A stretch of DNA of 64,000 bases from Amphibalanus amphitrite. Its lineage: Eukaryota; Arthropoda; Thecostraca; Balanomorpha; Balanidae. The notes beneath the pieces are model-generated. The model was not told the origin of the DNA. It was given only the letters and a program-made list of their open reading frames with translations, and did not search any database. The stretch spans positions 62,001-126,000 of the forward strand of contig NW_024882790.1 in assembly GCF_019059575.1 (NCBI RefSeq), read 5' to 3'. Of the stretch, positions 4,784 through 41,606 are shown in pieces. A program made the translations under genes and the position numbers. Position 1 is the first letter of the stretch; each line of letters opens with the position of its first letter.

Positions 4784-6440
4784 GGCGGGTAGGGGCGGCG
4801 CGGCCGGCTCGTCGCACCATGGGACGGATGCCCCTAAGAATGCCCACTTAATCAAAAAAATAAAGTTTTGTTTTCTGATTTCTAAAGGTGGTTTCCAGTG
4901 TAAAATTGACCAGCGGACCCAAACATGGCAACGATTTTAACTCTAACAGTGCCCTTTCCGATCAATTTGACTTCAAACACAAGCTACGTCCCACCCGCTA
5001 TGGACGCGAGTCGGACTGCTGAATCTGGTATGGTATTTTGAGATTGTATAAAGGCATGAAGCTGGAATGGGAGTCAGAAAATATGCATACCATTATGATG
5101 CTTGGTTAGTGGGCTTGCAGACGGACCACTTTTGAATTGATTGTTTTGTACTTATGACAGTTTTTTGGTGCAATTAACACGTGACGTCAAAATATGGCCG
5201 CTAACATTATGAGACAAAGCTTAAGTTACCTCTACGAAAAAAAGTTCCATCGAGTTCCGTTAAGTTTCTGCCATCGTTAATGTCGTTGGCATGTTGTTAA
5301 ATTGTCCTGAGATTTTCAGCTGCGGATTGCTGCGGTTTTCGGAGATATGCCGCGTGAAGTCGTTAATTACCGGTCGGCCGGCTGAGTCGGTCAGACCAAG
5401 GTCAGACGCCGGGCCGGCCGGGGTTTCAAATGGTGGGGCGCCTCCGTCTTGTGCGTGGCTGTTCGGCACTACCGGGTGTCAGGTTATGGAGAGCAGGGAC
5501 AGAACGACCCGATAAAACTCGAGACCGACCTTATATGACAGAAAGACGGTCCTGTCGGCATCGTTGCGTCTGAACGTACGGGAAGAGTGCGCGGTCGGGT
5601 TGCGTTTGGCGTCATGCTGCGAAGGGAGCTCTGAGCTAATTGAGCTGCAGGGAGGTGTGTTGTTGAGCCTGCTGAGAGTCGACATCTATAGCGATGAATC
5701 CGACTTGAGCGATTCTGACGACGCCTAAGACGCTGTAGACGCACGCTGTCAGGACAAGGCGCCTTGTAACGCATAGAAACAGCGGGTACCTGTGGACTCA
5801 ATTTTGCCAACTGGTAGGTACTGTTGCTAATCACGCGTTCCCTGATAATTTGTAATTGGACACGGTTGACTTGTGTTCGTTTTGCGTGCAAATGTGTGAT
5901 AATCTGCTTTGATGTTCCTGAATAAACTTTGAAACCACAATCATATTGTTAATCGTTTTAGGCATCCCTGAATAAAAAAAAACGTTAAAGTTGAAAAGAT
6001 GTTATTTAGGTTGAACTCGTGATCAAGCTGAGTCCAAACTGAGTCAGTATACTTGATACAATTTGACAGCAATCTATGCGAAAAGCATGTGAACTATGCA
6101 TCATGCCTTGAAAGTGCGTTAATATTAACCTGACAATAAAATTAATGTCAAAATCGGACTCAGCGCATAAAATAACCCCCTTACGTACCAAAATAACTTT
6201 GTCTTACGCAATCCACGATTTAATAGACATTTTGGGGGCCATCGTCCCATAGTGCGTCGGAGCCGCTGCCGCGTCAAACGCCGAGCCGCCAGCTGATTAG
6301 CCGGCTGAATGAACCGCCGCCCGGGGCGACCGGGTCAGCGGGCGCTGACCTCGCCCGTGCCAGACGGCCAGTCTGGAATTGGTCGCGGGCGTGGCGGACG
6401 GTGGTACTGAGTGCTCCAAAAACTGTCGTCGTTCGCAACT
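4784..6440. other. Unassigned stretch, no supported gene
   Basis: Several frames of 60-135 codons lie on both strands around 5290-5890 without recognisable domains. A plus-strand frame ending near 5728 has an acidic Asp/Ser-rich tail (SDESDLSDSDDA), but no upstream homology I can name. No half-site cluster or TTAA ends were seen. Confidence 0.4.
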
Positions 6441-6510
6441 TTAACCCGCGCCCTGCTGGGGGGGGGGTGTTTGAACACCCCCCCCCCCCTGTGGTTTTTC
6501 GCGAATATCT

Positions 6511-6543
6511 CAAAAACGGCGGCGCGGAGCGCCGCCGTTTTTG
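6511..6543. other. Internal perfect hairpin (15-bp stem, 3-nt loop)
   Basis: CAAAAACGGCGGCGC pairs perfectly with its reverse complement around loop GGA. The same hairpin with loop AGA occurs at 23791-23823. Related hairpins with changed but paired bases occur at 13598-13616 and 44752-44770, always just inside a TTAA-type terminus. Confidence 0.85.
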
Positions 6544-7066
6544 GTATACCTTATCACACATCAATTCTACACATGTTCTGAAAATTTCAGACCAAGGTCA
6601 TTCAAGGTCAGGTCACCAGGTCACTTGAAGTGACCTCACCTCATAAAAAGTTTCAATGTCTGCCATAGCTACACCGAGTGACCGATCGCTTTGAAACTTT
6701 CAGCGATTGCTAAGAGCAATAGCATGTACAAAATGTATATCTCAGAATTTTGATATCGATGACCTAAGGTCAGGTCAATTTTGCGACCTCCCCATTATGA
6801 GTCAATGGGAGAAAATTGAAAGGCGCTTTTTTTTGGATGAAAGCCATTATAAACACTCCCAAACACTGAATAACAAGTAACTAAGACACACTGAACATGA
6901 AAATGGTATCTGTGACCCCTGTGTATGCCCCTGAGGTCATCTCAGGTCACGGATGGTATCTAACAGTTTTTCGCGAATAACTTTTGATAGAGGCATGCTA
7001 GAGCGATGAAAACGCCTTGGATGTGTTCAGCTCGACGATACGGATCGACTGATATGCAACATGACC

Positions 7067-9046: not shown

Positions 9047-9951
9047 TTAACCCTCGCCCGTATATACCCTCGCCCCTACCTAACCTAACCCTCGCCCGGG
9101 GGGTCGAACGGACCCCCCCCCCCTCGGTTTTTTGCGAATAACTCGCTTAAAAAGCAGCCGATCGCGACGAAACTTTCAGTACCCTCGCGTTAATGCGTTA
9201 TTTAATTTTACACCTACCCTAATAATTTCATGACCCTGACCCAAATGACCTTGACCTGTGACCTACTTTTCGAGACCATGTTTGGCCGGAATCGCGATTC
9301 GGCGTATGTGTGCTCGCATTAGCCGCGCGTTTGCAGTCTTTTCGTGGGTTCAAGCGTTTAAACATGTGATATGATGTTGCCCCCATGCATAAGGGTGGGT
9401 GTCAAGGTCACCTGCAGATCAGGTCAGGTCATTGACCTTTGATGACCTCGGTTCACCTTTTCGAGTTTTATTTGTTTCTAGGCCAGTTTTTAAGAGCTGA
9501 ATTCGAATTTAGCAACCATAGGAACATTTACGAAGTAGTTTTGGTGCCTTCATAACAAGCTACGAAGCTGTCAGAGGCGGTTGACACCTACTACGAATAC
9601 CCGGCAGGACCCCCACTGGTTGATCTGACCTGACCTGACCCGACTTGACCTAAATGCATGAAGACATCATCTCTGATCAAAACTAACATTATATTCGTGA
9701 TCAACACCCCGAAAAACCCCATAGCAGCCACGCTTTACGACGTTCTAACAGGTCCCGATTTTCCCGACTTTTGGGTCATTGACCTGGCCTGGAAGGACAA
9801 CTAATGACCTAGGACCTTAAACTTGGGTATCATCGGCCTCCTCTCGTCACGGGCAACACGCTGGTTTTTTTGCGCGAAGCTCTAGCTCAATCAGGGGCGA
9901 AACGGCAAGGGGGTCCAACGGACCCCCCCCCCCCCCCTCCTATACGTTCGC
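9047..9951 (+). mobile_element. TTAA-type element, family B copy 1
   Basis: It starts TTAACCCTCGCCC at 9047, followed by hairpin GGGGTCGAACGGACCCC and TTTTTTGCGAATAACTCGC. The interior has many TGACCT motifs. A second hairpin GGGGTCCAACGGACCCC at about 9911-9937 marks the other end, though a closing TTAA is not evident. It is homologous along most of its length to 13862-14641 and, inverted, to 18546-23725. Non-coding. Confidence 0.65.
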
Positions 9952-13861: not shown

Positions 13862-14641
13862 TTAACCTTCGCACTTGTAGGAGGATGTCGAACAGAACCC
13901 CCTCTCAGTTTTTCGAAAATAACTCGCGCAAAAAGCGGCTGTTCGCGACGAAACTTTCAGTACCCTCGAGTTAATCAATATTACGCCTACCCTTAACATT
14001 TTTATGACCCTGACCCTTTGACTTGTGACCTGTTTTCTGAGACCATGTTTGGCCGGAATCGCGATTTAGCGTATTTCGTCTCACAATATGAGCGTGTTTA
14101 TTGTCTTTTTTGTGGCTTTAAGCGATCAAACATGTGAAAGGATGTTGATCCCATGGATTCTAGTGGGTGTTAAGGTCACGTGAAGGTCAGTCAGGTCACT
14201 GACCTTTGATGACCTTAGTTCACTGCTTCGAGTTCTACATGTTTCTAGGGTAGATTTTGGAGTTGATTTCGCATTTAGAAACCGTTTGAACATTTACGAA
14301 GTAGTTTTGGTTCCCTCGTAACATGTGACCTGACCTGACCTGACCCGACCTGGACTAAATGCACGAAAACATCATCTGTGATAAAAAATAGTTTGAAATT
14401 CATGATCAGCACCCCGCAAAGCCTTATAACAGCCTCACTGTAAAAAGCTCTAACAGGTCCCGATTTTCCCGACTTTTGAGTACATATTGACCTATCAACA
14501 AATGACCTAGGACCTTAAAATTGGGTATCAACGGCCTCCTCTCGTCACGGGCAACACGCTCTTTTTCCGCGAACCTCTAGCTCGATCAGGGGCCGAACGG
14601 CAAAGGGGTCCAACGGACCCCCTCCCCTTTACGCTAGACGC
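13862..14641 (+). mobile_element. TTAA-type element, family B copy 2
   Basis: It starts at TTAACCTTCGC (13862). The interior follows copy 1 closely (AATAACTCGCGCAAAAAGC, GGCCGGAATCGCGATT, ACATTTACGAAGTAGTTTTGG) and it ends with hairpin GGGGTCCAACGGACCCC at about 14608-14624. Non-coding. Its right side abuts the hairpin and the LINE. Confidence 0.65.
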
Positions 14642-15417: not shown

Positions 15418-18247
15418 ATGTCCACCAATGTCAATGGCCTTGCTCCCAAGTTGAATATTCTGAAAGACAATGTTGGAATCCATCTGTGGGACATCATATG
15501 CGTCACCGAAACCCATCTCCTCGCTCACCTTCCTAGCTCCATTGTAGATATTCCCAATTATTCCCTGATCAGGCATGATGCCAGTGGCCATGTGTACAAA
15601 CATGGTGTATGCAGTTACATTCACAACAGCTTGATGGTTGATTCTGTGACTCAACCTCTTCCAAATGTACTCTCTTTTCGTCTTACATCCTTTGATGTTT
15701 TTATACTGATCGTTTACAGAGCCCCCTCTAATTCCTCTGATGCTAATGAATCATTGAACTCATTCATACTATAGACTTCTGCAGTGGCAAAGAGGTTATC
15801 GTTGCCGGAGACTTCAACCTGCCTAACATTGACTGGAGTCGTTCAAACCCTTCCTGTACTCCCCTTGAAAGAATGTTCCTCGACACATTCACAGCTGTTG
15901 GTCTTCACCAATGGATTATAGAGCCCACCTTTCCCAGGTCTGGGAATGTCCTTGATTTGCTTCTCACTTCAGAGTCTGACAGAGTAGGCTCTCTCAACGT
16001 ATCTGCTCCACTGCCTGGTTGCGATCACTGTTTGATATCATTTGATTACATCTTCGATATATCTCCAGATGGGACTCTTTTTTCTGGTCCGTCAACCTTG
16101 TCAAGGGATTGGAACAAGGGACACTACCACTCCGCAGCCCGCAATCTAAACGATGTTGACTGGGATGTTGAGCTTGCTTATTTAAATGCTAATCAATCTT
16201 TTGAACGATTTTCAGCCATCTTACACAGTGTTACAGTGGAATGCATCCCTCTCAAACCCCATAGAAAAGGAAGGCCTCCTTGGTCAACTAGGCCTCCTGC
16301 TAGCCTTCTCAACCAAAGACACGAGGCATGGTCCCATTACAAGACAGTGAGGGGGCGTCTGGGTCGAAAGTCCACAGAGGCCCGTTCCTGCTACTCCACC
16401 TTTGCCAGTATTAACCAGCGATGCCGTGCCCATGCTGTTAATGCCCAAGCCAAATATGAAGAAGACCTTCTCCGTAAATCCCATGAACAGCCTAAACTAT
16501 TCCACTCTTACCTTAGGCATGAGAAGGTTGGCCGTCCTTCGGTTGGACCGCTGCAGCTGTCATCGGGCCAACTGAGTGATGATCCCTCCTGCATGGCTGA
16601 GATTTTTGCTGAGTCTTTCTCATCCGTGTATAGCCGCTCTATCCCATCCGAACCAAGCCCACACCAACAATTTCACGAATCCTCACTTGAACACATTGCT
16701 ATTTCCCGTGAAGATGTGTTAAAGAGTCTTCTCGAGCTTGATGGAAACTCAGCCATGGGACCTGATGACATTCACCCTCTCTTATTGAAGAAGTGTGCTG
16801 ATCAGTTGGCTCAACCTTTGATGACCATTTTCAACAGATCCCTCCGAGAAGGTACCTTACCAGATAGCTGGAAGAGGTCTCTTGTTGTTCCCTTGTTTAA
16901 GAAAGGTGTACGGTCTGACCCTCTCAACTACCGACCGATAAGTCTTACCTCTGTGCCGTGCAAACTGATGGAGCGCTTAATTTGTAAATCACTTGTTCCC
17001 TATCTGGAGTCGAATGAGATTATCAGTCCTCACCAGTTCGGGTTCAGGTCTGGAAGGTCTACAATGGACCAACTGCTACTGGTCTATGATGACGTGTCAA
17101 GACGGACAGATGAGGGTGCGGTAACGGATGTTGTTCTCTTCAATTTTAGTAAAGCGTTTGATGTAGTTGTTCATGAATTGCTTATAGATAAACTGATAAG
17201 CCTAAATATCAATGGAAATCTTTTGAAATGGATAATTTCATTCCTCACAAGCAGGTTCATGAGGGTATGTGTCAAGGGCAAATCAAGCAGTTCCAGACCT
17301 GTACTCAGTGGTGTGCCCCAGGGGTCTGTGCTGGGCCCGATCCTTTTCCTTATTTATTGAATAGCATTGCATCCGATCTTAAATGCGACTACAAAATCTT
17401 TGCAGATGATCTGAAAATATACAGCAGCTTTGAGCACAAACGTGACTCGGCACCGGGCTCCCCTATGTACCACTCCGTTCAACATGATATCGACGTTTTG
17501 CTGAGGACTGCCACATCGTGGGGTTTGCACATGAACGCCAAAAAATGTGTGGTCCTACGCTTTGCTAGACCTTGTCCTAACATTAGCCAGCCATCCTACA
17601 TCCTGAATGGTGCTCCGATAACTCCAGCAAGCAAGGCCTCTGACTTGGGCGTCCTTGTTGATGTCACCATGAAGTTTCATGACCACATCCGAAATGTAGC
17701 CCATAAGGCGGGTGGCCTAGCTGAAAGCCTACTTAAGTCCACAGTGTGTCGCTCTCCTCAATTTATGCTGTCCCTTCTCACAACCCACATCCGACCAATC
17801 ATGGAGTACTGTTCTTGCATTTGGAATACTGGGTATGTACAAGACCTTCGACTTCTTGAACGGGTTCAGCGGAGATGGACGAGACACATTGATGGAATGA
17901 CTGGACTTAACTATGGTGAAAGGTTAGCTGCATTGGACCTCTATTCGGTACAGGGTAGACTGCTGCGGGCCGACCTGATCCAGTACTGGAAAATCCTAAA
18001 TAACCACTCCTGTATCAATCCTAATGACCTTTTCCAGAGGCCCTATCGCAGCGGCACCAGGGGTCACGGATGTAAGATATTTCCCCCAGCCACCAGAACT
18101 GACACTCGCAAGCGCTTTTTTTCTGTTCGCTGTATTCGCATATGGAATGAGCTGCCTGCAGAGGCAGCATGCGCGACTAATATTAATAGCCTAAAACGCA
18201 TTCTCGATACATGTATTCGTAGCAAACTGTTCGATTATGTAGATTAA
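15418..18247 (+). pseudogene. LINE ORF2: endonuclease + reverse transcriptase, frameshifted
   Basis: The first ATG of the reading frame is at 15418 (MSTNVNGLAP, endonuclease start). An APE-type endonuclease covers 15418-16050 with ICVTETHL and AGDFNLPNIDW. The reverse transcriptase follows (about 16740-17600): GPDDIHPLLLKKC, NYRPISLTSVPCKLMER, QFGFRSGRSTMDQL, GVPQGSVLGPILF, IFADDLKIY. Frame changes near 15760-15783 (frame 1 to 3) and near 17345 (just after GSVLGPILF) split it into three frames. Motif A reads NFSKAFD where the family has an Asp, so the catalytic Asp is Asn (codon AAT). The C-terminal CR1-like region ends at the stop at 18247. Confidence 0.9.
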
Positions 18248-18988
18248 CTTATATGAAAATGCGAACTGTGTTGTGGTAACGATAACTGTATAGGTAGGTA
18301 TCGTCTTACAACTTGTTTTTCTTATATGATGTAGGTCTATCTTGTACGACTATGTTTCGCGAGGCGCAATTTCCGGTCCATTATTAAATGTTATTATTTC
18401 TTGTCTGTCACCATTTGGACTGGCGCGTCTCTTTCATTTAGGGTTCCTTACATCCACCTAGCTTGACCCCTTCCTATCCGGACAAGCGAGGCAAAGAGGA
18501 ACCCAACGAGGTAAAAATAAGAAAAAAACACCAATATAAGCGATGGTTAGCCCTCGCCGGCACAGGCCATTTTGCGTCCTTCGACGGCACAAGGGGGGGG
18601 GGGGGTTGGTACGACCCCCCTCGCGTTTGGCCCCTGATAGAGCTAGAGCTTCGCGGAAAAACGAGCATGTTGCCCGTCACGAGAGGAAGCCGATGATACC
18701 CAATTTTAAGGTCCTAGGTCATCGGGTGACCTTCCAGGTCAGGTCAATGACCCGAAAACCGGGAAAATCGGGACCTGTTAGAAAGTCGTAAAGTGTGACT
18801 GCTTTGTGGTCTTCCGGGGTGCTGATCACGAATATCGTGTCAGTTTTGATCAGAGATGATGTCTTTAAGCATTTAGACCAGGTCGGGTCAGGTCAGGTCA
18901 GGTCAACCGGTAGGGGTTGTGACGGGTATTCGTAATACTTGTCAACCGCCTCTGGCAGCTTCGTAACATGTTACGAAGGCACCAAAAT

Positions 18989-21900
18989 ATTACAGGTAAG
19001 TCAGAACAGGTCTTTTTTTTACAAAACATTTCCGGTACATATCCACACACACGCACACACAAACCCATACACACATGCCCGCTCGGACACGGTCAGGAGG
19101 CATTCAAGCGCCAATCCTCCGTGCGGCAGTTACAGTCCCCCACCCTCCATCCTGACTATCTGGCTGCAGAGCTCCTTGTGGAGGTAAAAGAAGGTATAAC
19201 CGTCCCGTTGGTGACCTTCATTCAGGACGTACGCCTCGTCCACGCAGCTGACTCGCTGGTCGTCGTAATTGAACCACATGTTCCGTCCTACACTGTACAC
19301 GTCAGACACATAGTGTCCTGAGTGCGTGGCGCCACCGTAGTGGCTGACGACTCCCACCAGCCGATACGTAAAGTCGCCGACCAGGTCGACGGGACGGAGC
19401 GACTGATCTTCCTGGACGCAAAACTCGGAAAGGTGCACCTGTTCCACGGCGCCGGCCGGTTCTCTCTCCTGTGACCTCCTGATAGCATGGAGCTCGCGAC
19501 CCTTGTCCTCACGGGTCCGCCCCGGCTTCGAGTTTGAGTTGGCGGCGTCCAACACCTGCAGCTCGGGTGGCGGCAATGGCGGCGACTCAGCAGCAGCAGT
19601 CGACGATGGCGAAGGACGAGCCGGCGCCGTGGCTCCGGCCGACACTGGAGAGCCTGCAGTGGTGGGCGCTGTTGGGGCGGCGGTGGCGGCCAGTGGGCCT
19701 GAGGGAACCTCCGACTCCCTAGTACACAGGGAAGGATTTGTGCAGTTCCACTCGGGAGGCCGGGTGACGTCGTCCGCGACAAACTCGTTCAGCGAGAGGA
19801 ACTTGGGGATGCTCACTTTGGTCCGGACCTTCTTCGCCTCATCCCCCAGAAAGACACACCGGTTCAGTTGGAGGATCAGTGTCCTGGGAAGCTGACTTAT
19901 CTTGGTGGTGATGTAACACTCATCGTGGCGGCAGTGCTGACAGAGCAGGTGGCGCCGGTCGGGTCGCATGCTCAGCCGCAGCGCGTCCTGCAGCGTGGGC
20001 GCCTCGGTGCCCTGGTGGTGCGGTACGCTCACAAACCAGCTGATGTTCTCTTGGCGCTTCAGAACTGTCTCATGACACTTTGTGCACCTGTAACTCTCGA
20101 GGGTCTGGTAATGGAAGTTGTCGCGGACCGGGTTGTCTGTCGATCGTCGAGCGTCGACTTTGTCTTTCATTGTGTCCAGCAGGCGCAACAGGAACTCGTT
20201 GGCGTCCTGCATCTCGGTGCCTCGAAACGCCGGATCGATGTCGGCGAAAACATCGCGCAGGTCATTCAGGTGGCTGAAGACTAATTTGCTGAGCGCCTTC
20301 TGGCGAAGATCCATCAGTTTGGCAACGCCACACAGCGTGCGGCACTGGCCGCTTTCGACCGGGCCCGAGATCAGGGACACCATCTCACACTGGAACGGTT
20401 GGAGACCCAGCAGGGATTGCAGGGTGGCGTTTTGATAGCAGGTGTTCCCATAGTTGGGCAGGCCGATGTAGAGTGGGTCCTTGCTGTTCTTGTCCGAGTC
20501 GAGCGGCGGGATGACTGGATTCAGCTGTAGGTCGTGACTGGTCGTCTGTGCCTTGCTCTCTGACCCTGCTTGTCTCCTCTTCTTGCGCGCCTCAAGCTGG
20601 CACTGGCTGCGCTGTCGGACATCCTTGGCCACCTCCAAACGCTGAGGTGGGCGGGAAGGAAGCGAAGTGCTTGTCAGCAGGATGGAAGCTGCGTTGCCTC
20701 TGATGATGGCGATCGAACACCGCTGGAGAAGCCACTCCGTCTCCCGTCTCTCTCCCGTGACCGCGGACACCTGAGCTCCGATTTCTCGGAGAAGACTCTT
20801 TGTTGATGGGCCGCAGGAGCCACTTGTCTCAAAAGCGATTGGCTGAAAACGGAAGCGCCGGCAGAGTTCTGGGTATTTTCTACGTTTTTCTTCTTCCGCT
20901 TCAGCGGCAGCTGCCCCTGCTTGGACCACCGCCGAGGCGAGGCGGGACTCAGCGTACGTGTTGACGCACGTAACATCCCAGACAAGGCACTGTCCCTGTG
21001 TGAAAGGGAAGATGGTCATTCCATCTGGGCGTTTGCCGTCACCTCGATTGATGCCGAGCGGTTCTAAGAGGGCGGGCACGCCGGCCGACTGCAGAGCTCT
21101 CCTGATGACCTCATTCAGCGCTGTGTGTCGGGGAAGTCTTCCAGCGCTGAAGCGGCATGTGAGCGTGTGATGACCCTTGCAGTCTGCCACCGCGCCGCAC
21201 TTGCAGACATGGCTGCTGTTCACGTCGGCCCCGACTCGTAGGGCTATAGCGATACGGACGGTGTTGTTATCTAGAAGGGTGCCGAGACTCGCAGACGGTA
21301 ATGATCGCATCCATGCGCCGCTCTCAGGTGTCGCTGCGCTGAGGAGTCGAGCGCGCTCAAACTGGTTGGCCGCAGCCAGCAGAGAATCTCTCTGCTTTTC
21401 TGCGAGGGGATAGTCCCACTTCTTCTGCTGGCGGCGAGCATCAGCGTCTGGAGTCATTTTGTCACCTGCCTTTGTCAGCCAGTCAGCCGTCGATTCATCC
21501 AGCTCCTTAGAAATAGCGGCAGTGAAGAGAGGAGGTAGAAGAGAAGACAGCAGTTGCTGACATCGGTGGAATGAAGCTATGAAGCTGGGCAGGGCGACGT
21601 CTGTAACTCGTCTGAGACCAAGCCCTCCAAGAGAGGTGGGTAGGACCGCCTGCTGCCAGCTAGTTTGGTCAAAGTAGACGTTGGTCAGATCCTGAACTGC
21701 TGACTTCAGGGTTACGTCCAGCTCGTTTAGTATATCCGGCTGAAGATATACTGGTGCGGCTCTGAGCAGGTACTGGAGTCTGGGTAGCCAGAGGCAGTGG
21801 CGAAGGAGGTAGAAGGCTGAGTGGCTATCTAGGAGTTTGAGGCCGGTGATGAGGCGATCCAGTTCCTCTTTCTTTCGTCCTAGTGCAGTTTCAGCCGCTG

Positions 21901-23386
21901 AACTGGTCAGGGGCGCTCCAAGCACCATCTGTTCAGCATCGTCTTTTACTGTCGCGCCCGGGATGAGATGGTGCAGCTTCTCCACGCAAAGGGTGTGCTG
22001 CACCGCATCGCCACTGGCGTTGATGATTTCACATTTGGCTGGATTGACTTCCAATCCGATGCGTGCCATGGCTGGAATCAGGTCTTGTAAGTCGGCACAC
22101 ACGCCGTCAATGCCACCTCCTAGTGTCCCGTCGTCTAAATACCAGACGTTTAGAGGAGAGGTGACGTTTCTGGTAACTGACTGGACCGCCAGAGAGAACA
22201 CAGCCGGTCCCGACGGGTCTCCTTGCTGCAGACCGGTTGCTGACCAGATGACGGACGTGCCATAATACAGCGGAGTCGACACTGAGTACGCCTGCCACAG
22301 CAACGGGAACAATTCAGGCGCATGGATGCGCACCTGTCGCAGGAAGTGATCGCGGCGCACAGTGTTGAAGGCGTTGCGCATGTCTACTTTAACAAGCACG
22401 CTGTCCTCAGAGAGATTGCGTGCAAAGAGGCGGGTAGCGTGGGCAGCAGCTTCGCAGCCTCCAGGTGTCCCGAAGCCTAGCTGGTTCGGGCGCAACAGCG
22501 CCCCTAGCTCAGAGCTAGGTGGCCGTAGTGCGATCTTGGTTGCCAGTCTGCGGTATGTTGTTCCAATTGCGATGGGTCTGACGCCCCCGCAAGGCTTTCT
22601 TAGCGCAGTCAGCGAGGCAGCGTAGAACGCTGCATGTGCGGAGGCTGGCACTTGACCGCATATAGCCAGATTCACCAGCCGGGTGAGCGCTGAAACCAGT
22701 CTCGCCCCTGCCTCGCCAGCTGAACGGCCCACCAGATCCTTCAGGTGCGCCGGCCTCAGGCCGTCCAGTCCGGCACTGGCGCCAGGGTCGAGAGAGGCTA
22801 CTGTCGCCAACACCTCTGATTCGGTGGCCAAAACAGGCTGAGTGTCATCGTCTGGACCGGGTGGGAGGTCGAGGTCCTCCGGACTTGACGGATGTTTAGC
22901 CTTGAGGGACTCCAATACGTCGTCTGAGTCGTGTTCAACACGGTCAGCGGATGCTAACAGACGAATGGCGCCTCGCACGTCACTATCTTGCAGCTTCAGG
23001 GCGACGCCTCGTTTCAAACGCTCGTCAGGCTTCCGAATGCCGGGAGATTGATGATGATTTGTAGCCCTATTCGGGAAAGTCATCTGCTTGGTGCAGCTCT
23101 CTTCTGGTGGGAATGACGCAGCTAGGCTTGGTTCGGAGGAAACGGCTTCCATGTAGGCAGCGATTGAGCGTTTTACCTTTGTTGTCAGAGAGATATTATC
23201 GGTGTTGCGAGCATCAATTTGGGGAACGCTTAGGGCCTTGTATGGAAAGCACAAGAGCCTTGACCACGAATTGGCTGTGCCGGTGTCTACAGCGTTCTCG
23301 ATCAGAGAGGAGAGGGCCTCCGCCGCTGCGATCCTTGCCCCTCTGGGTATTCTTCGAAAATTACTGGGCACCACTGGGCACCGCTG
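18989..23386 (-). mobile_element. RLE-type non-LTR retroelement carrying a ubiquitin-specific protease
   Basis: GGCACCAAAAT occurs at 18978-18988 and again at 23387-23397. Family B copy 1 has a single GGCACCAAAA (on the complementary strand near 9540-9550) at the same place, so this is an 11-bp target duplication around a 4,398-bp insertion. The open frame reaches almost to the 5' junction without a usable ATG in its first 74 codons, consistent with 5' truncation. At the 5' junction GGGCACC is repeated three times at 10-bp spacing (23366-23392), as in imprecise 5' joining. The 3' UTR is about 140 bp, with a CA-rich stretch and no terminal poly-A. Confidence 0.85.
19130..23374 (-). CDS. Reverse transcriptase-endonuclease-ubiquitin protease fusion
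   Basis: One uninterrupted frame of 1,414 codons; the listed start is GTG and the first ATG is codon 75 (23152), so it is probably 5'-truncated. Residues 1-180 resemble the N-terminal region of RLE-type RTs. RT at about 185-560: motif A VKVDMRNAFN (Asp331), GLQQGDPSGP, WYLDDGTLGG (Asp414, Asp415). CxC-x8-H-x4-C knuckle at 724-740. Restriction-like endonuclease KRPDG (Asp783) and VWDVT (Asp800), possible Glu849. A basic linker (905-965) leads to a C19 protease: Cys box GNTCYQN (Cys979), zinc ribbon CTKC 1097-1100 and CQHC 1145-1148, His box HSGHYVSDVY (His1354), NYDDQRV (Asp1371). The tail DGYTFFYLHKEL resembles USP37/29/26. A low-complexity Pro/Ala/Ser insert (1222-1300) splits the protease fold. 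All catalytic residues I can place are present. Confidence 0.9.
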   Translation of the reverse strand: MVPSNFRRIPRGARIAAAEALSSLIENAVDTGTANSWSRLLCFPYKALSVPQIDARNTDNISLTTKVKRSIAAYMEAVSSEPSLAASFPPEESCTKQMTFPNRATNHHQSPGIRKPDERLKRGVALKLQDSDVRGAIRLLASADRVEHDSDDVLESLKAKHPSSPEDLDLPPGPDDDTQPVLATESEVLATVASLDPGASAGLDGLRPAHLKDLVGRSAGEAGARLVSALTRLVNLAICGQVPASAHAAFYAASLTALRKPCGGVRPIAIGTTYRRLATKIALRPPSSELGALLRPNQLGFGTPGGCEAAAHATRLFARNLSEDSVLVKVDMRNAFNTVRRDHFLRQVRIHAPELFPLLWQAYSVSTPLYYGTSVIWSATGLQQGDPSGPAVFSLAVQSVTRNVTSPLNVWYLDDGTLGGGIDGVCADLQDLIPAMARIGLEVNPAKCEIINASGDAVQHTLCVEKLHHLIPGATVKDDAEQMVLGAPLTSSAAETALGRKKEELDRLITGLKLLDSHSAFYLLRHCLWLPRLQYLLRAAPVYLQPDILNELDVTLKSAVQDLTNVYFDQTSWQQAVLPTSLGGLGLRRVTDVALPSFIASFHRCQQLLSSLLPPLFTAAISKELDESTADWLTKAGDKMTPDADARRQQKKWDYPLAEKQRDSLLAAANQFERARLLSAATPESGAWMRSLPSASLGTLLDNNTVRIAIALRVGADVNSSHVCKCGAVADCKGHHTLTCRFSAGRLPRHTALNEVIRRALQSAGVPALLEPLGINRGDGKRPDGMTIFPFTQGQCLVWDVTCVNTYAESRLASAVVQAGAAAAEAEEEKRRKYPELCRRFRFQPIAFETSGSCGPSTKSLLREIGAQVSAVTGERRETEWLLQRCSIAIIRGNAASILLTSTSLPSRPPQRLEVAKDVRQRSQCQLEARKKRRQAGSESKAQTTSHDLQLNPVIPPLDSDKNSKDPLYIGLPNYGNTCYQNATLQSLLGLQPFQCEMVSLISGPVESGQCRTLCGVAKLMDLRQKALSKLVFSHLNDLRDVFADIDPAFRGTEMQDANEFLLRLLDTMKDKVDARRSTDNPVRDNFHYQTLESYRCTKCHETVLKRQENISWFVSVPHHQGTEAPTLQDALRLSMRPDRRHLLCQHCRHDECYITTKISQLPRTLILQLNRCVFLGDEAKKVRTKVSIPKFLSLNEFVADDVTRPPEWNCTNPSLCTRESEVPSGPLAATAAPTAPTTAGSPVSAGATAPARPSPSSTAAAESPPLPPPELQVLDAANSNSKPGRTREDKGRELHAIRRSQEREPAGAVEQVHLSEFCVQEDQSLRPVDLVGDFTYRLVGVVSHYGGATHSGHYVSDVYSVGRNMWFNYDDQRVSCVDEAYVLNEGHQRDGYTFFYLHKELCSQIVRMEGGGL

Positions 23387-23725
23387 GGCACCAAAATTAC
23401 TTCGTAAATGTTCAAATGGTTGCTAAATTCGAATTCAGCTCCAAAAACTAGCCTAAAAACATGTAAAACTCGAAAAAGTGAACCGACGCCACCCGAGGTC
23501 ACCAAAGGTCAATGACATGATCTGACCTTCAGGTGACCTTGAAACCCACCCTAATGTATGAGAGCAACATCAAATCACATGTTTGAACGCTTGAAACCAC
23601 GAAAAGCTTGCAAACGCGCGGCTAATGCCAGCCGACATACGCCGAATCGCGATTCCGGCCAAACATGGTCTCGGAAAAAAGGTTGGTCACAGGTCACAGG
23701 TCATTTGGGTCAGGGTCATGAAATT

Positions 23726-25685
23726 TTAACCCGCGCCGGGCCGGGGGGTGTTTGAACACCCCCCCCCCCTGCGGTTTTTCGCAGATATCTCAAAAACGGC
23801 GGCGCAGAGCGCCGCCGTTTTTGGCATACCTGTTCGTGCATCTTTTCTGCACATGTTGTTAAAATTTCAGACCCAGGTCACCTTAGGTCAGGTCACCAGG
23901 TCACGCCAAGTGACCTCACCTCAGAAAAAATAAGAATGCTCGTCATAGCTACACCGAAGAATGATGCTTAATCCCCATTTCCACTCCAACAGGGCTTGAG
24001 AGTCCAGGCATTCCTGTGGGGCACGGGCTAACAATGACTAGCTCATAATCATTGTGGCCATGAACATCTACTGCCATTGATTAACACCGGTTTCGCTGCG
24101 CTGAGCGGTGGCCGTCCCGTTTGTTGGATTCTACAGCTGGCTGGCGGAAAGCGTTACCGGTCGCCCGTCCACCGCCCGCGGGCCGGACCGAGCGGTCCCT
24201 TCTTCTTCTTCTTCTTTGTGGGTTAGGGCGCGCAGCCGTCAGGCCCTAGCGTCCAACTTCTTCGTTTCTTGCATTCAACTGTCCGATCTTCCACGATGTA
24301 GTGTCGGGGTTGGTAGGTACTAAGCGGTAACTAAGCAGGGTTGTGGGTAGCCGGAAAAGGAAAAAACCTAGGGAAGGACAAATGCCAGGGGAGGAAATTG
24401 CCGGGGAAGGATTAAGCCAGAAGGAACAGACCTGAGTAGCAGTGTTAGTGTCAGTTTGATTGGGCAGCAATCTACAAAATGATGAAAGAAAGATCAATAC
24501 TCTTCTAGTACGTAACTGGGCGGAGCAAGGGGTCACGCGATACAGGGGCGGAACTGGTTGCCCTCCCGCTCGCCGAGCGACCAACGACTAATACCCTGGA
24601 GAACCGTACATCAATTTTGGACAATTTGTGAAATTTTTGACCCCAGGTCATGTCAGGTCAGGTCACCAGGTCAAGTTTACTGACCAAACCTAAAAAAGTT
24701 TGCAATCATGTCCAGCCTGCAGTGTTGGTCAGAAAGGTTTTAAACTTGGTGGATTGCATGATGTTATAGGCGCCTATAATTTGTATATCTCGGATTTTTC
24801 ATATCCGTGACCCAAGGTCAGGCCAGTGGCGTGACCTTACCATTATAAGTCAATGGAGAAAAATGAAAATGCCTCTAAATCCGTGTGTACGCATAGGAAC
24901 AGTCCAAATATTTCAGAATTACAATGATTTGGACCACCCGTGACGACCAAGGTGTCTTTTTTGCTGATAGCCTCTAGAAAGGTCATCCGAGGTCATTTGA
25001 GGCTACAAACAGCTTTTTGCCAGTAACTCTCGAATGGAAAGACATAGAACGCTGGGGATGGTCTCATTGTGTTTGTCTTGCCGAGACGCATCGACTGATA
25101 TGCAACATGACCTTTTCCGGTCAGGTCATGACCTTGACCTGAGGTCAAATTTTCAAGTTGACCTTTCAAGGTCAAATTATAATTCATTTGATGCGTCTTG
25201 GCAAGAGGAACATGATTCTGGTAATAGAAATGTCTTGGCTTTTTTTTTAGTCAAAAGTTATTGTCGAAAAACACTTTTCGTAAAAACAGCTATTTTGGAG
25301 TATTTGCCCTCTGGAGGCTAAACCGTTGACCTGAGGTCAATTTTGATGATAACCTTATCGAAAGAAGAGTTTAAAAGCTATCAATTGCTATTCCATGCGT
25401 TTTTCTAGCTATCATAGTTCCTGAGATAAATTCATGTTTTCTGAAAAATATAATGACATTTGACAAATTTTAACCTTTGATGACCTTCAGTGACCCCAAT
25501 ATTGCTCTAAGATGAAAAATGACCGAAATACTTTCAAACGTACGCATTAAGAGCTATCGACTGCTTTTTACCGCGTCTTTCTAGCCCTCTATAGTTTTTG
25601 AGTTAGAGGTGGGTGGTAGCATATGCCCCCCCCCCCCCCCCACTAGGGCGAAGTTGACTGAGATCGCCACTGGGGCGCGGGTTAA
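23726..25685 (+). mobile_element. Composite TTAA-type element (family A left end, family C right end)
   Basis: TTAACCCGCGCC at 23726, hairpin GGGGTGTTTGAACACCCC, the internal hairpin at 23791-23823 and half-sites follow family A copy 1 to about 23960. About 640 bp of unrelated GC-rich DNA follows (23960-24600, including a TTC run near 24200). From 24601 half-site-rich sequence resumes (AGGTCATGACCT at 25123-25134) and ends with the family C terminus and GGGGCGCGGGTTAA at 25685. Either an insertion occurred or two elements recombined. It joins the family B tail at a TTAA, so it probably inserted into that element. Confidence 0.65.
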
Positions 25686-27360: not shown

Positions 27361-28188
27361 TGCCGCGTGCCGTCAGCGGTTTTCCCGTCAACGGTTTTAC
27401 CTGCAGTGGCCGCAAAAACTGCCTAAATGGCCGATATTTTCGGAAACCAGTTTTCGGCGATAACTTTCGTCTCAAAATTTGCACGAACTTCCCTTTACCA
27501 GCATCGTGTTCCTCTCGTCCAGACGTGTGGAATGAACTATGAATTGACCTTGAAAGGTCAACTTGAAAATTTGGCCTCAGGTCAAGGTCATGACCTGACC
27601 AATAAGGGCTAAGATCCATATCAGTCCATCCGTATCGTCGAGCCAAACACAACTAAGGTGTATTCATCGCTCTAGCATACCTCTATCAAAAGTTATTCGC
27701 GAAAAACAGTCAGATACCATTCGTGACCTGAGATGACCTCAGGGTTATAGAAAGGGTCACGGGTGCCATTTTCATGTTCAATGTGTCAAAGATACTAGTA
27801 ATTCAGTGTTTTAGAGTGTTTATAATGACTTCCGTCTAAAAAGGCGACTTTCAATTTAAGGTCGCAAAATTGACCTGACCTTATGTCATCGATATCAAAA
27901 TTCCAAGACATACATTTTTTTTTGCATTTTGTCGCTCTTGTGCATTTGCATCTCTGAAAGTTTCAAAGCGTTTGGTCACTCCGTGTACCTTTGGCAGACA
28001 TTAAAACTTTTTATGTAGTGAGGTCATTTGACCTGACCTGGTGACCTGACCTTAAGTGACCAGGGTCTGAAATTTTCACAACATGTGTAGAAATGATGTA
28101 GAATAAAGTGTGCCGCGTCGCCGTTTTTTAGATATTCACGGAAAACTGCAGGGGGGTGTTTAACACCCCCCGGCAGGGCGCGGGTTAA
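27361..28188 (-). mobile_element. TTAA family A copy 3, inverted and truncated
   Basis: The right side ends CCCGGCAGGGCGCGGGTTAA at 28188, with hairpin GGGGTGTTTAACACCCC. Reading leftward it matches family A copy 1 (AGGTCATGACCT at 27585-27596) up to about 27361, where homology stops without the second TTAA end. Only one arm of the internal CGGCG hairpin remains. Confidence 0.75.
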
Positions 28189-30177: not shown

Positions 30178-31325
30178 TTAACCCGCGCCGGGCCGGGGGG
30201 GGGTGTTTGAACACCCCCTTGCGGTATTTCGCAGATATCTCAAAAACGGCGGCGCACACTGTTCGTGCATCTTTTCCGCACATGTTATGAAAATTACAGA
30301 CTCAGGTCGCCTTAGGTCAGGTCACCAGGTCACGCCAAGTGACCTCACCTCACAAAAAAATGCTGGTCATAGCTACACCGACTGAACGATTGCCTTGAAA
30401 CTTTCAGCGATTGATTAGAGCAACATTATCTATAAGATGTATATCTCGGAATTTTGATATCAGTGACCTAAAGTCAGGTCAATTTTGCGGCCTCTCCATT
30501 ATAAGTCAATGGGAGCAAATTGAAAAGCGTCTGTTTTGCACGAACGCTATTCTAGACACTCTCAAACATCGAGATGTAGGTAAAATTGGCACACTGAACC
30601 GGAAAATGGCAACTGTGAACCCTCGTTATGTCCCCGAGGTCATCTCAGGTCACGAACAGAATCTGGCAGTTTTTTCGCTAATAACTTCTGATAGAGGCGT
30701 GCTAGAGCGCTGAAAACGCCTTAGATGTGTTCGACTCGACGTTGCGGATCGACTGATATGCAACATGACCTTTTCCGGTCAGGTCATGACATTGCCCTGA
30801 GGTCAAATTTTCAAGTTGACCTTCAAGGTCAAATTATAGTTCATTCGACGCGTCTCGACGAGAGGAACACGATGCTGGCAAAAGTAATGTCATGGCTCTT
30901 TTTGGTCAAAAGTTATTGCCGAAAAGCGTTTTTAATAAAAACGGCTATTTTTGGAGTTTTTGCCCTCTGGAGGCTAAACTGTTGACCTGAGGTAAAATCT
31001 GAGAACACCTCTCAGAAAGGTCTGTAAAAGGGCTATCGAATGCGCTCTTCTGCGGCGCTGTAGCTCTATCGGTTCCCGAGATAACCGTTGGCAGTTTCCA
31101 AAATGTTGAAATAATCAACATTTTACCTTTGGTGACCTCTGGTGACCTGACCTTTGACCTGACCCAAAACATGACCGAAGTGTTTTCGTCTTTATTTTGG
31201 ACGGTCTTTCGATTACCGCTTACCACGTGTCGCTACCTGGCCCAGGAGCCGAGTTAGAAGGGAGGGTGTTCAGACACCCCCCTGCCCGGCGCGGAATCTC
31301 GGAGCACCGGCCCGGCGCGGGTTAA
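30178..31325 (+). mobile_element. TTAA-flanked element, family A copy 4 (complete)
   Basis: TTAACCCGCGCC at 30178 and GGCGCGGGTTAA at 31325, with hairpins GGGGTGTTTGAACACCCC near the left and GGGTGTTCAGACACCC near the right. It is colinear with copy 1, including TTTTCGCTAATAAC and CCGGTCAGGTCATGAC. One arm of the internal CGGCGGCGC hairpin is deleted at 30247-30260, and the AGGTCA palindrome has one mismatch (30781-30792). Non-coding. Confidence 0.8.
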
Positions 31326-33158: not shown

Positions 33159-33771
33159 AGCCTAAAATCTGCCCAGCCTCCGAGGCTGTTAATCCGAGAC
33201 GGAACACCGTCATCTCGCGGCGGTCCACCCGCCGATACACATCCCAGGCGACGGCCCACGTGACCTTAATTATCACCCAGGCCTACCCTGGGCCGGAACA
33301 ATCGGGCCACTGGTCCCGTGTCCCGCTAGCCAGAGGTTAGACAGACTACAGCCCGTCGTCCCCTCCGAGCCAGGACACGAGGCTGACCGGGTAACATTTC
33401 TTGAAACCCTCCTCGGCGGTCTGTGCCCGACTCGCCTTCATCCTCACGTTTAATTTCGCGACTTATTGCACGCATCCAGGGCTTACTCAATCGAGGCCTC
33501 ATATCTAGTGGGGTCTGTCCGAATTTAGCGTCATTCGGGAAACCTGATTTATCTATTTGTACAGTCTTCCTCCTTTTCACTCGCGTCTCATCTCCCTCCT
33601 AACCCATGGCCGCGCCGGTGGATTCTCCACGCACAGGGGCGTGACGTGCACCATCTATCTCCCCGGTTCCATCCATTGCAGTGTCCATGTAGAATACAAT
33701 TACATATATTTGGTGTGCAACAGGGTCTAAGCGTGTTGCTTGTATGCGGGGCGTTGGTAAATTGATTAGTG

Positions 33772-34553
33772 GAGTGCCAGGAAATCCGCTGGCAAGGGCA
33801 CTTGGGAGTCAACCGGAGAAGCTCCAGTATCGGTTGGGCTAGGGAGGTCCTGTATGTGTTGTGTATAATCGCTATCATTTGGACCGTGGGATAATTTAGG
33901 GAGGATGGAGTGCCAGGAAATCCACTGGCAAGGGCACTTAGGAGTCAACCGGAGAAGCTCCAGTATCGGTTAGGCTAGGGAGGTCCTGTATGTGTTGTGT
34001 GTAATCGCTATTGTTTGGACCGTGGGATAATTTGGGGAGGATGGAGTGCCAGGAAATCCAATGGCAAGGGCACTTAGGAGTCAACCGGAGAAGCTCCAGT
34101 ATCGGTTAGGCTAGGGAGGTCCTGTGTGTATTGTGTGTAATCGCTATTGTTTGGACCGTGGGATAATTTGGGGAGGATGGAGTGCCAGGAAATCCACTGG
34201 CAAGGGCACTTAGGAGTCAACCGGAGGAGCTCCAGTATCGGTCAGGCTAGGGAGGTCCTGTGTGTATTGTGTGGAATCGCTATTGTTTGGACCGTGGGAT
34301 AATTTGGGGAGGATGGAGTGCCAGGAAATCGACTGGCAAGGGCACTTAGGAGTCAACCGGAGAAGCTCCAGTATCGGTTTGGCTAGGGAGGTCCTGTGGG
34401 TGTTGTGTGTAATCGCTATTGTTGGACCGTGGGATGATTTGGGGAGGATGGAGTGCCAGGAAATCCACTGGCAAGGGCACTTAGGAGTCAACCGGAGAAG
34501 CTCCAGTATCGGTTAGGCTAGGGAGGTCCCGCATGTGTTGTGTATAATCGCTT
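33772..34553. repeat. 136-bp satellite, about six copies
   Basis: GAGTGCCAGGAAATCC recurs at 33772, 33908, 34044, 34180, 34316 and 34451, a period of 136 (once 135). Later units are nearly identical; the first is the most diverged and the last is partial. Frames across it are repeat shadows. Confidence 0.95.
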
Positions 34554-36226
34554 TGTGCACTGTGTAAAATCAACAGATCAAGAGAACTGATCGTTGTAAA
34601 TTACTCTGGCCAGACACCTTGGAAACGACCTCTTTCCTGACTGTGGGTTAGCATATGGCCTTTTATGCTCCATCCTCCGATCCCTGCCCCTTCAGCACTA
34701 CTCACACTCGTATTTCAATATTTACAAGTCCCATTTATTTACATACTCCGACGCAACACCTTGAATTCCCTTGCACGTCAAATTTAAAGGAAAGATTCTG
34801 GGCCCAGGCCGCCCATCAACTGAGTCCCACAAGCCGCGCGGTGCGGTACACAGTCGCCCGTCCCTTTCCCGACTCCCCACGGTGCATAATCCCCTCCCTC
34901 CGTCCGCCTTAATCACCATGGGACGCCGGACGAGAGTCCACGCCGGCACGCGTCTTACGACAACAGACACTCGTACATTTTAAATAGCTGACAGAATCGA
35001 ATTGTTCAATTAAACTACCTAAAAATGAATGGCCCGAAATATTGCGGGACGGCACAAAAAAGAAGAGGAATATAATGTGGCTCACATAGCAGTAACGAGG
35101 GGGAAGTGATTATTCCAAGGATTTGGGGATTAGGTGCACGCCCGTGATCACCGTGACCTTACTTGAGATGGAGTCGCTGACATGATGGCCGTGTCCGTCC
35201 AGCGCCCGGCCCGGCGGCCAGAGCCGCCGCCGGCGCCGTGGTGTCCAGCCGTGGAGGTCTCGTGGGCTGTCCGCGATGCCAGACGAGAGACGTGAACCGA
35301 GAGAGTGCCAGCCCAGAGTCCGTCGTCCGAGAGAGAGCCAGAGCCTTCCAGTTCCGTTTCATCAACTTATACTTTTGATGACGTCATACTTCAGAGGGCC
35401 GGGCAGCATCTCCTTGTCCAAGCTTCGTCCTCCATTCTCAGAAAGTGCGTTTGGCTCCGCCTTCAAACGTTCGTGATTTGCTGAAGTTCGGCACCCCCGG
35501 CCATGGCAGTCACACCCTTTCACGCAGCGGTCGGGTGGAATTCGCCGCCGGCGATCACGGCGTCTGGGGCGCCAGGTGGCGGGGCTGGCCCTCCGCTCCC
35601 CTTGTTTTTGAAGCCAGCTCCGGCCAGATGTCCTATATTTTGTCGTTGGCGACCGAGTTCTATTTCATCCTGTTTTCGTACAAACCGGGTCGGTCCCCGC
35701 TCCCCTTTCTTGTTTTGGTTCAAATCAGGGCCGGTCTGCACTCCCCTCTCCTTGTTCTTCTCTTCTGGCGGGGTGCCGAGCGTGGGACATTGTCTTGTTT
35801 TCCAAAGGTTAAACTGATAAATGGTTCGAGACGGGCCGAATGGCGCGTTTCGGTATGCTATTTGTCGACTTCAAATCCGGGTTCTCATGAAGCGGGGTGG
35901 TCATCTATAGGGGACCCTGTTTGTCAAAGCCGGCTGCGGCGTTTCTGTGGGCGCCGGCTGGGACGGAGATCGGGTATCACAGCCGATTTAGCCGGCTGAC
36001 CGTGTCTGTGTGGCGCTCGCAGATGGCTATGTTTCAGCTTGTGACACAGCTTGCAATTCCGCATGAAAGATGAAAAAATGTAGCGCATCTGCGTTACAAA
36101 AGGTCTAAATGTGCACGGGGTGTAAGATGACGTTATTGGTCGGTGCCTTCCCCAATCTTAAATCACGTGGGTGCCGGGTGTGGTACGTGGCACGCACGCT
36201 GAGAAAACGCGCATTTCCCCATTATT
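34554..36226. other. Unassigned 1.7 kb, no supported gene
   Basis: The longest frame (35445-35999 plus, 184 codons) begins at GTG, is Pro/Ser/Arg-rich and shows no domain. The 35160-35360 part is GC-rich with GAGAGAGCCAG-like repeats. A TGACGTCA site lies at about 35379-35386. Confidence 0.4.
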
Positions 36227-40489: not shown

Positions 40490-41572
40490 TCACTTGTTAC
40501 GGTAGTAGCACTTGAGGAAGCAAAGTGCATCAACGACTTCGTCGCCGAGACTCGACCGCACTTTTGTGACGATATTCCCGACAGTGGAAAACACTCGTTC
40601 CGATTCAACGCTCGTAGGAACTATGCCCTTCAGCCAGTTGTAGGACAGCGCTACCATGCCTGTCCTTCCTGAGATAGGTAAATTTTCCAATTCTTTCCTT
40701 ATGGCCTTCGTCATCATCAGAGAAGATTGCGAAAAGTTAATCCCAGACGGGCATGAACTGGTGCCTTGCTCTGGAGCTCTAACCTCATCTAGAGCTTGTT
40801 GAAGCATCGACTGAAGAGACGGCGCTGCTTCAGGATCATCAGCGTCCATCACTTCTGTATCTACACCTACTTCGGTATCATGCATCTGTTCTCCCAATCT
40901 TTCCATCATGTGGACAACTAAGTCCTGTGCTTCCTTGCGAGAGGCACTAGGAAAAATATCTTTCCAGTCTCTGTCTGCCGACATTTTGTTATGGAGCGAT
41001 TGTAGGACTTTAGCCGCACGTGACCGTCTCTGTCGGATGCGCTGTTTCAACGCATCAGACAGTTTACATGCAATCGCGCAGTCCTCCTTGTCAAGCGCGC
41101 TTAACATAAACTTTAGAGCAGCTTCAGCCTCCAATAGTCCACTTTGTCTCCTGCATAGCGCTTCTGCTCCGAGTTTCATGATTCTCAGGCAGCGAATGAG
41201 CGCAGGTATGGCGGCGTATTCATAATCATCGATCATTTTCATACGTTTGTCTCCTATGTCAATGAGTGCTTTGTGGACAGCTGCTTTGAGGTTATCCAAT
41301 CGTTCTAGCATGTCATACAAACTATTCCATCGGGTTTTACAGTCTAGCACTAGCATCAGTTCCTGCCCACGCTCCTCTCTGACGTATTTCTGAAGGACTT
41401 CATTTCGTACGGGCGATTTTCTAAACCAGCGGACAATGTTTCTAATGCTTTTAACGACTGGAGAGAGCGAACTATGTAGTTCGTGGTGACCAGTAGCACC
41501 AGTAGTGTTTTCTTCCACGTTGTCGTCCTCATCCTCGTCATCACCGTCGGATTCATCTGACGAGTTCACCTG
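40490..41572 (-). CDS. hAT-superfamily transposase, C-terminal part
   Basis: About 360 codons to the stop at 40490. An acidic stretch (SDESDGDDEDEDDNVEEN) precedes RNIVRWFRKSPVRNEVL, then KTRWNSLYDMLERL, a helical middle, and the C-terminal dimerisation region PTSVESERVFSTVGNIVTKV with RSSLGDEVVDALCFLK, a hAT hallmark. The BED finger and the first catalytic Asp region are absent. The frame opens right after CCTTGCAG, a plausible splice acceptor, so an upstream exon may be missing or outside recognisable sequence. The segment is undamaged but lacks an ATG at its start. Confidence 0.85.
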   Translation of the reverse strand, partial: QVNSSDESDGDDEDEDDNVEENTTGATGHHELHSSLSPVVKSIRNIVRWFRKSPVRNEVLQKYVREERGQELMLVLDCKTRWNSLYDMLERLDNLKAAVHKALIDIGDKRMKMIDDYEYAAIPALIRCLRIMKLGAEALCRRQSGLLEAEAALKFMLSALDKEDCAIACKLSDALKQRIRQRRSRAAKVLQSLHNKMSADRDWKDIFPSASRKEAQDLVVHMMERLGEQMHDTEVGVDTEVMDADDPEAAPSLQSMLQQALDEVRAPEQGTSSCPSGINFSQSSLMMTKAIRKELENLPISGRTGMVALSYNWLKGIVPTSVESERVFSTVGNIVTKVRSSLGDEVVDALCFLKCYYRNK

Positions 41573-41606
41573 CAAGGCGACAATATCCTTACCTTATTAA
41601 TCTATA

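Follow-up and report, generated by a model that had tools for sequence, protein, structure and literature searches.

The insertion described here lies in a 64,000-nucleotide stretch of the genome of the barnacle Amphibalanus amphitrite (assembly GCF_019059575.1, contig NW_024882790.1, positions 62,001 to 126,000), which we refer to as the window. On its minus strand, one uninterrupted open frame encodes a reverse transcriptase (RT), a zinc knuckle, and a restriction-like endonuclease (RLE), followed after a variable linker by a ubiquitin-specific protease (USP) domain of the C19 family (Table 1). Residues are counted from base 23386, which adds four to the numbers used in an initial annotation made from the sequence alone. 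That annotation had proposed a single frame of more than 1,400 codons joining an RT-endonuclease to a C19 deubiquitinase, and this is borne out by the length of 1,418 codons and by Pfam, which recovers RVT_1 and a full-length UCH profile. The RT motif, the knuckle, and the RPD...WD signature that it named are likewise present in the sequence: the RT contains WYLDDG (LDDG at 417), and RPD and WD stand at 786 and 803. Among 37 aligned relatives, the knuckle and RPD/WD residues are invariant or at least 90% conserved, the nuclease itself being assigned from sequence and fold. The seven best PDB matches to the RT-RLE model are all R2, with LINE-1 next; the R2 structural match spans ∼850 alignment columns, and identity in the structural matches is 16-18%. 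The RT, knuckle, and endonuclease, together with the mode of insertion described below, are those of an RLE-type, R2-like retrotransposon without long terminal repeats (non-LTR).

The C-terminal domain gives a UCH/C19 Pfam match (1.4e-45, residues 974-1401) that covers the full profile (1-254 of 254). Its putative catalytic triad is Cys983, His1358, and Asp1375, and zinc-ribbon CxxC pairs lie at 1101 and 1149; these correspond to the Cys979, His1354, Asp1371, and two CxxC pairs of the initial annotation, all of which are in place. We take Asp1375, the first Asp of the last box, to be the third triad residue, in keeping with USP alignments. With the Cys, His, and Asp/Asn boxes and the finger CxxC pairs all present, the C19/USP catalytic domain is complete in sequence, and no Ulp1 was among the Pfam matches of the window protein. 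A protein search with residues 860-1414 returned 12 proteins (P numbers below designate proteins retrieved in our searches), among which the cellular matches are a decapod USP37-like protein (P0008) and a crayfish CWF19-like protein with UCH (P0009), at 30-31% identity. No chain called USP37 stood among the 60 PDB matches listed for the window USP, and no barnacle USP37 was found for comparison with it. USP37 bears ubiquitin-interacting motifs within an insert of its catalytic domain; the pattern of this motif occurs in P0001, P0002, and P0004, as well as in P0008 and P0009, and is absent from the window copy, P0003, P0005, P0006, and P0007.

Table 1. Features of the insertion and of its target repeat in the window
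Feature	Position	Strand	Basis
Whole insertion: 5'-truncated RLE retrotransposon with C-terminal USP	18989..23386	-	target duplication and two element-free copies of the target repeat
Open frame of 1,418 codons with stop	19130..23386 (codons 19133-23386; stop 19130-19132)	-	
5' junction filler, 10-bp target-like repeats	23363..23386	-	tandem repeat 23363-23393, period 10; sequence
Reverse transcriptase RVT_1, residues 263-456	22019..22600	-	Pfam 1.3e-14; R2 fold match of modelled region 20670-22960
C-C-H-C zinc knuckle, residues 728-744	21155..21205	-	sequence; conserved across 37-row alignment
RLE core RPD...WD, residues 786-806	20969..21031	-	sequence; 37-row alignment; R2 fold match of whole RT-RLE model
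Variable linker, endonuclease to USP, residues 902-971	20474..20683	-	23-35% identity with gaps, six pairs
USP/C19 deubiquitinase, USP37-like, residues 974-1401	19184..20467	-	
Catalytic Cys983	20438..20440	-	
Catalytic His1358	19313..19315	-	
3' untranslated region	18989..19129	-	sequence from stop codon to target duplication
Target site duplication, copy at element 3' end, GGCACCAAAAT	18978..18988	.	exact repeat
Target site duplication, copy at element 5' end, GGCACCAAAAT	23387..23397	.	exact repeat
Target repeat copy without element	9224..9935	-	continuous over insertion point; 86% / 90% identity to left / right flank
Second target repeat copy without element	14000..14627	-	continuous at insertion point; 81% / 80% flank identity; gap of ∼60 bases to left

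The boundaries of the insertion are marked in two ways. As the initial annotation had claimed, an 11-bp target duplication (GGCACCAAAAT) encloses the unit, and its two copies are identical. Taken alone, this duplication is only fair evidence; a shared exact 11-mer was found in 16 of 2,000 random pairs of equal-sized window zones. Stronger evidence comes from the two copies of the flanking repeat that are free of the element, the second of which lacks ∼60 bases starting ∼22 bases to the left of the insertion point. Because both ends are fixed by the duplication and the element-free targets, the USP is part of the unit that moved. The locus is one insertion, and the USP moved together with the RT, as had been supposed. 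What had gone unnoticed is that the unit is 5'-truncated, since similarity to its relatives begins only at ∼23359-23365, downstream of their PHD-like finger. Between this start and the target site lie 24 bp of 10-bp target-like repeats. We considered whether these GGGCACC repeats were an unrelated satellite and rejected this, as their place is the 5' junction and their sequence is similar to that of the target. Truncation at the 5' end is usual in target-primed insertions. With its 11-bp duplication, element-free targets, and truncated 5' end with filler, the locus is best explained as the target-primed, 5'-truncated insertion of an R2-like (RLE) non-LTR retrotransposon. The in-frame start proposed for the window frame is GTG and the N-terminus of the family is missing, from which this copy is probably not autonomous. 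We note that the target is a dispersed repeat rich in AGGTC/AGGTCA units, found at 9224-9935, at 14000-14627, and around the insertion (18593-18988 with 23387-23730); farther along the right flank, some stretches are also similar to 6437-6677, 27980-28188, and 30178-30381.

The fusion is not confined to this copy. A second protein search, with residues 150-960, returned 371 proteins; it scored only the 7,991 candidates sharing most words with the query at 0.55-1.75 times its length, so that the 15 proteins carrying UCH among the best 120 of the 371 do not translate into a genomic frequency. When both searches are pooled, a USP is joined to the RT and/or endonuclease of this family in at least 21 further database proteins, and the RT-RLE region is matched in all 127 proteins compared. 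A unique fusion is thereby rejected, and so is the outcome on which the initial annotation would have abandoned the fusion, namely that all other copies lack the USP. The relatives include two A. amphitrite gene models, P0002 and P0203, which NCBI names USP37 and USP2 and which contain transposon RT-endonuclease sequence; A. amphitrite is so far the sole named host for the clade with USP-ending polyproteins. The fullest relatives are ordered as a 2A-like peptide, a PHD-like finger (mostly under the Pfam cut-off), RT, zinc knuckle, RLE, variable linker, and USP, and the 2A-like D[V/I]ExNPGP motif lies near the N-terminus of five relatives (P0005, P0134, P0142, P0209, and P0222).

Relatives with other C-terminal ends were also seen. 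An alternative module with motifs like LxxYRxxYxEM and ADPELARYL is found in P0012, P0138, P0142, P0145, P0187, P0191, and P0202, with the motif order swapped in P0138 and P0202, and is dispersed on the RT tree, where its 7 rows need 7 changes. Pfam gave no match on the tails of P0142, P0012, P0187, and P0202 and one chance-level match (E 0.14) on that of P0145. This module is possibly a second exchangeable cassette. P0238, an RT-RLE relative from the sea spider Nymphon striatum, has an 830-residue C-terminal extension that perhaps reflects a merged gene model; NCBI names both it and P0138 'SLACS', presumably a CRE-type name. Viral and genome contig collections searched for relatives gave 45 and 575 pattern matches, respectively, of which none was confirmed.

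Beyond what the initial annotation saw, the kind of USP varies between relatives. The USP37-like kind of the window copy is common to seven of them. By comparison with solved structures, P0203 carries USP2 (369 bits; next kind 271), P0193 and P0140 carry USP35 (165 and 154; next 76 and 67), P0222 carries USP30 (167; next 58), and P0134 and P0139 belong to the USP8/USP15/USP2 group as a whole. P0010 carries USP10 and is 70% identical to Amphibalanus USP10, the match starting at host residue 540 and covering the catalytic end only. In a tree of 18 USP10 domains, for which 17 host proteins were picked from the match list with Amphibalanus as the only barnacle, P0010 and the Amphibalanus gene form a fully supported sister pair. 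This position next to the barnacle's own gene shows the host origin of the USP10 cassette, and a host origin is the natural reading for the other kinds. For six further proteins the kind was set solely by visual inspection and by their identity, 46-81% over 59-301 residues, to members already typed: P0132 and P0135 are USP2-like, P0141 and P0157 USP35-like, P0217 is USP30-like, and P0209 falls in the USP8 group, while P0136 could not be assigned to a kind. There are five distinct kinds of USP (USP37-, USP10-, USP2-, USP35-, and USP30-like), and the USP8/15 group is a probable sixth. At least one capture per kind is needed, and further captures are possible. Vertical descent of a single ancestral USP in all members is rejected by the presence of several kinds together with the conflicting trees described below.

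The catalytic residues are kept across these kinds. Of the 22 USP-bearing proteins, the window copy included, 21 have a Cys box, and only the gene model P0002 is without one. The triad is filled at each of its three positions (Cys, His, and Asp/Asn/Ser) in 13 of the 22, which partly reflects row selection, since these 13 are the rows left once the incomplete ones are set aside. The other nine are P0002 and eight proteins that are cut short. In one of these eight, P0003, the sequence stops short of the third triad residue; the C-terminal part of the USP is missing from P0132, P0135, P0136, P0141, P0157, P0209, and P0217. In P0222, the USP30-bearing protein, the sequence WFYTSD is found; the third triad residue of USP30 is Ser. 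Over six pairs, the USP N-lobe is 54-78% identical and the adjoining linker that precedes it 23-35% identical, with gaps. The pattern points to selection on the USP domain.

We compared the history of the RT with that of the USP. The RT tree was built by a quick method, with support from the Shimodaira-Hasegawa-like approximate likelihood ratio test only, and holds 59 of the 127 RT-RLE-matching proteins: each of the 22 that carry a USP and of the 7 that end in the other tail, plus 30 others picked by hand. On this tree the eight USP37-bearing elements require eight state changes, and both main subclades contain mixed kinds of USP. In the USP37 trees, of 10 and 8 rows, the domains carried by elements form one group separate from the two decapod genes (100/100), and the topology inside this group differs from that of the RT. 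Pairwise identities depart in the same manner: P0003 and P0007 are 69% identical in the RT and 45% in the USP, whereas P0003 and P0001 are 59% identical in the RT and 74% in the USP, and P0135 and P0203, both of the USP2 kind, are 49% identical in the RT and 68% in the USP. In approximately unbiased tests, the RT data reject two USP pairings (p 5.8e-7 and 0.0037), and the USP data reject one of two RT pairings (p 0.0004). The scatter of USP kinds on the RT tree and the conflict between the RT and USP trees indicate that cassettes were exchanged between element lineages, and such exchange would explain much of the scatter.

On these sequence comparisons, we think it probable that at least five, and probably six, USP paralogues have been captured, stripped of their native targeting parts, fixed behind the RT-endonuclease as the C-terminal end of the protein, and, with selection favoring deubiquitinase activity, swapped between element lineages. 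The explanation that we favor, with moderate confidence, is that RLE retrotransposons repeatedly capture and swap host deubiquitinase domains, which would act in cis on the element's own protein or ribonucleoprotein (RNP). RTs of this type jump between templates, and the capture of a host mRNA is mechanistically easy for them. A USP catalytic domain could enter an element from host mRNA by template switching, and cassettes could then pass between elements by further switching within the linker. USP10, USP30, USP35, USP37, and USP2 differ in their native targets. Because USPs of unrelated native substrates share one tethered place, and USP10 contributed just its catalytic end, the benefit may lie in a generic deubiquitinase activity tethered beside the RT. 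The USP would strip ubiquitin from the protein or RNP of the element and so protect it in cis from host ubiquitin ligases and the proteasome, which are thought to restrain retrotransposons.

Several observations weigh against this explanation. Deubiquitinase activity, expression, and protection are all predictions; the window copy is without the N-terminus of the family, and confidence in the USP model is modest (mean predicted local distance difference test score 62; 34-41 for the other four models). In some clade members, no USP is seen in the listed protein. One of these is the nearest RT, P0011 (83%), which ends 62 residues past the endonuclease in a tail that by eye resembles the P0002 linker; its open reading frame (ORF) may be broken or incomplete. 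The USP may be dispensable, unless such USP-less ORFs are cut short. Seven clade members end in the alternative module rather than in a USP, and the USP of P0157 appears frame-shifted by eye. On the RT tree, nine labels need 25 changes as compared with 27.6 when shuffled, a value reached or undercut in 10 of 200 shuffles, which indicates slight clustering. With the USP data, the second RT pairing (P0002 with P0005) gives p 0.058 and one RT subclade kept together gives p 0.068, both short of 0.05.

The main rival is action in trans: the USP would deubiquitinate histones or repair factors where the element integrates and thereby aid insertion or escape from silencing, with the PHD-like finger and the endonuclease bringing it to chromatin. 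We regard this as possible but unlikely: the swapped kinds of USP differ in their native targets, which is more easily reconciled with a generic tethered activity than with a single chromatin substrate. The PHD-like finger of the fullest relatives speaks for action on chromatin, as does the suggestion by the Ginger authors that such proteases aid repair during transposition (accessible portion of PMC2836005). Different USPs recur with their catalytic residues kept, and for this reason we disfavor the alternative, raised in the initial annotation, of a hitch-hiking host sequence, in which template switching would occasionally fuse host coding sequence to the end of the element without benefit. 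The domain is moreover far better conserved than the linker, and the precomputed Pfam domains of the best 120 of the 371 RT-search proteins are, besides RT, PHD, and one zf-C4, UCH only, in a length-limited search that may miss other fusions. The ease of host mRNA capture, the broken-looking or cut-short state of some USP parts (P0157, by eye), and the clade members that lack a USP leave hitch-hiking doubtful rather than baseless. We find it very improbable that the protease works in the way of viral proteases and cuts the polyprotein of which it is part, or a ubiquitin-like moiety attached to that polyprotein; a cysteine protease in a long polyprotein with a variable linker would suit such a role, but C19 enzymes cleave after ubiquitin, and Pfam shows no ubiquitin-like domain in the window protein or the relatives scanned. 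Several relatives are gene models or short contigs, but an assembly join, a chance juxtaposition, or a gene-model artefact fusing an RT element to a host USP gene is next to inconceivable, as the window join lies within one open frame bounded by a target duplication, two continuous element-free target repeats exist, and many other contigs show this order of parts with different USPs.

Other features of the window include a retroelement RT at 15873-18247 (+) in two overlapping frames, with RVT_1 in 15873-17360 and a sub-cut-off match in 17228-18247, by appearance a frame-shifted long interspersed nuclear element. A 361-residue ORF at 40490-41575 (-) has a hAT-family dimerization domain. A 136-bp tandem array (5.8 copies, 95% matches) occupies 33770-34556, and three 30-bp arrays that share one unit among them, at 50858-50948, 51608-51698, and 52362-52452, are spaced by ∼750 bp, which suggests a larger tandem unit. 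An Rfam scan and a tRNA scan (bacterial settings) of the window each gave no match.

If the favored explanation is correct, this family would be a natural and repeatedly evolved tethered-deubiquitinase defense of a genomic parasite against ubiquitin-dependent host restriction. An element with its own deubiquitinase would make the ubiquitin restraint of retrotransposons a directly testable arms race, and if one clade repeatedly took up different USPs, the activity, and not a particular enzyme, would be what pays. The natural set of RT-deubiquitinase fusions could be used to probe the effects of ubiquitin on a retrotransposon RNP. It would also extend the proteases known from mobile elements, Ulp1 and OTU, by C19 enzymes in a retrotransposon, and it documents modular C-terminal exchange in non-LTR elements. 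Target-primed RTs are relevant as gene-insertion tools, where protein stability counts. As a practical warning, the two barnacle genes annotated as USP37 and USP2 hold transposon polyprotein sequence.

R2 elements share with the present family the fold and order of the RT, knuckle, and RLE, at the low identity given above, but R2 targets ribosomal DNA and carries no USP. For the published systems that follow, we rely on the accessible portions of the cited sources. The nearest described elements are NeSL and Utopia-1_TSP, RLE retrotransposons with an N-terminal Ulp1-like cysteine protease (PMC4640811). As in our family, one protein combines RT, zinc finger, and RLE with a cysteine protease from the ubiquitin and SUMO systems; here, in contrast, the protease is C19/USP, C-terminal, and of several interchangeable kinds, so that the distinction from Ulp1-bearing NeSL and Utopia elements drawn in the initial annotation stands, and the single target seen is a dispersed repeat rather than the spliced-leader or U2 genes. 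A C-terminal ubiquitin/SUMO protease on a mobile-element protein has precedents in the Ginger1 DNA transposons, which bear OTU or Ulp1, two kinds within one superfamily, and in a Trichomonas vaginalis transposase joined to Peptidase C19 (PMC2836005). These are DNA transposons, the Ginger1 proteases are not USPs, and the accessible part of that source describes no exchange of cassettes between lineages. Helitron2 'Helinoto', a DNA element, likewise has three deubiquitinase-like domains, according to a title cited in PMC7599744. RNase H was taken up repeatedly and independently by plant and oomycete retrotransposons (PMC5348765), which parallels the repeated gain of one enzyme class by different retroelements; RNase H, however, serves reverse transcription, whereas the enzyme gained here is one of ubiquitin control and derives from several paralogues. 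The 2A-like motif of the five relatives follows the form given for 2A-bearing non-LTR retrotransposons (PMC4981915); those of multicellular organisms are termed APE-type in a title cited there, whereas our relatives are RLE-type, and the window copy is without the 2A part. A literature search returned no non-LTR retrotransposon with a USP, a result that holds for open-licence papers and does not prove absence from print. Protease-bearing RLE elements were thus already known; what appears to be new is RLE retrotransposons with captured, exchangeable C19 deubiquitinases.
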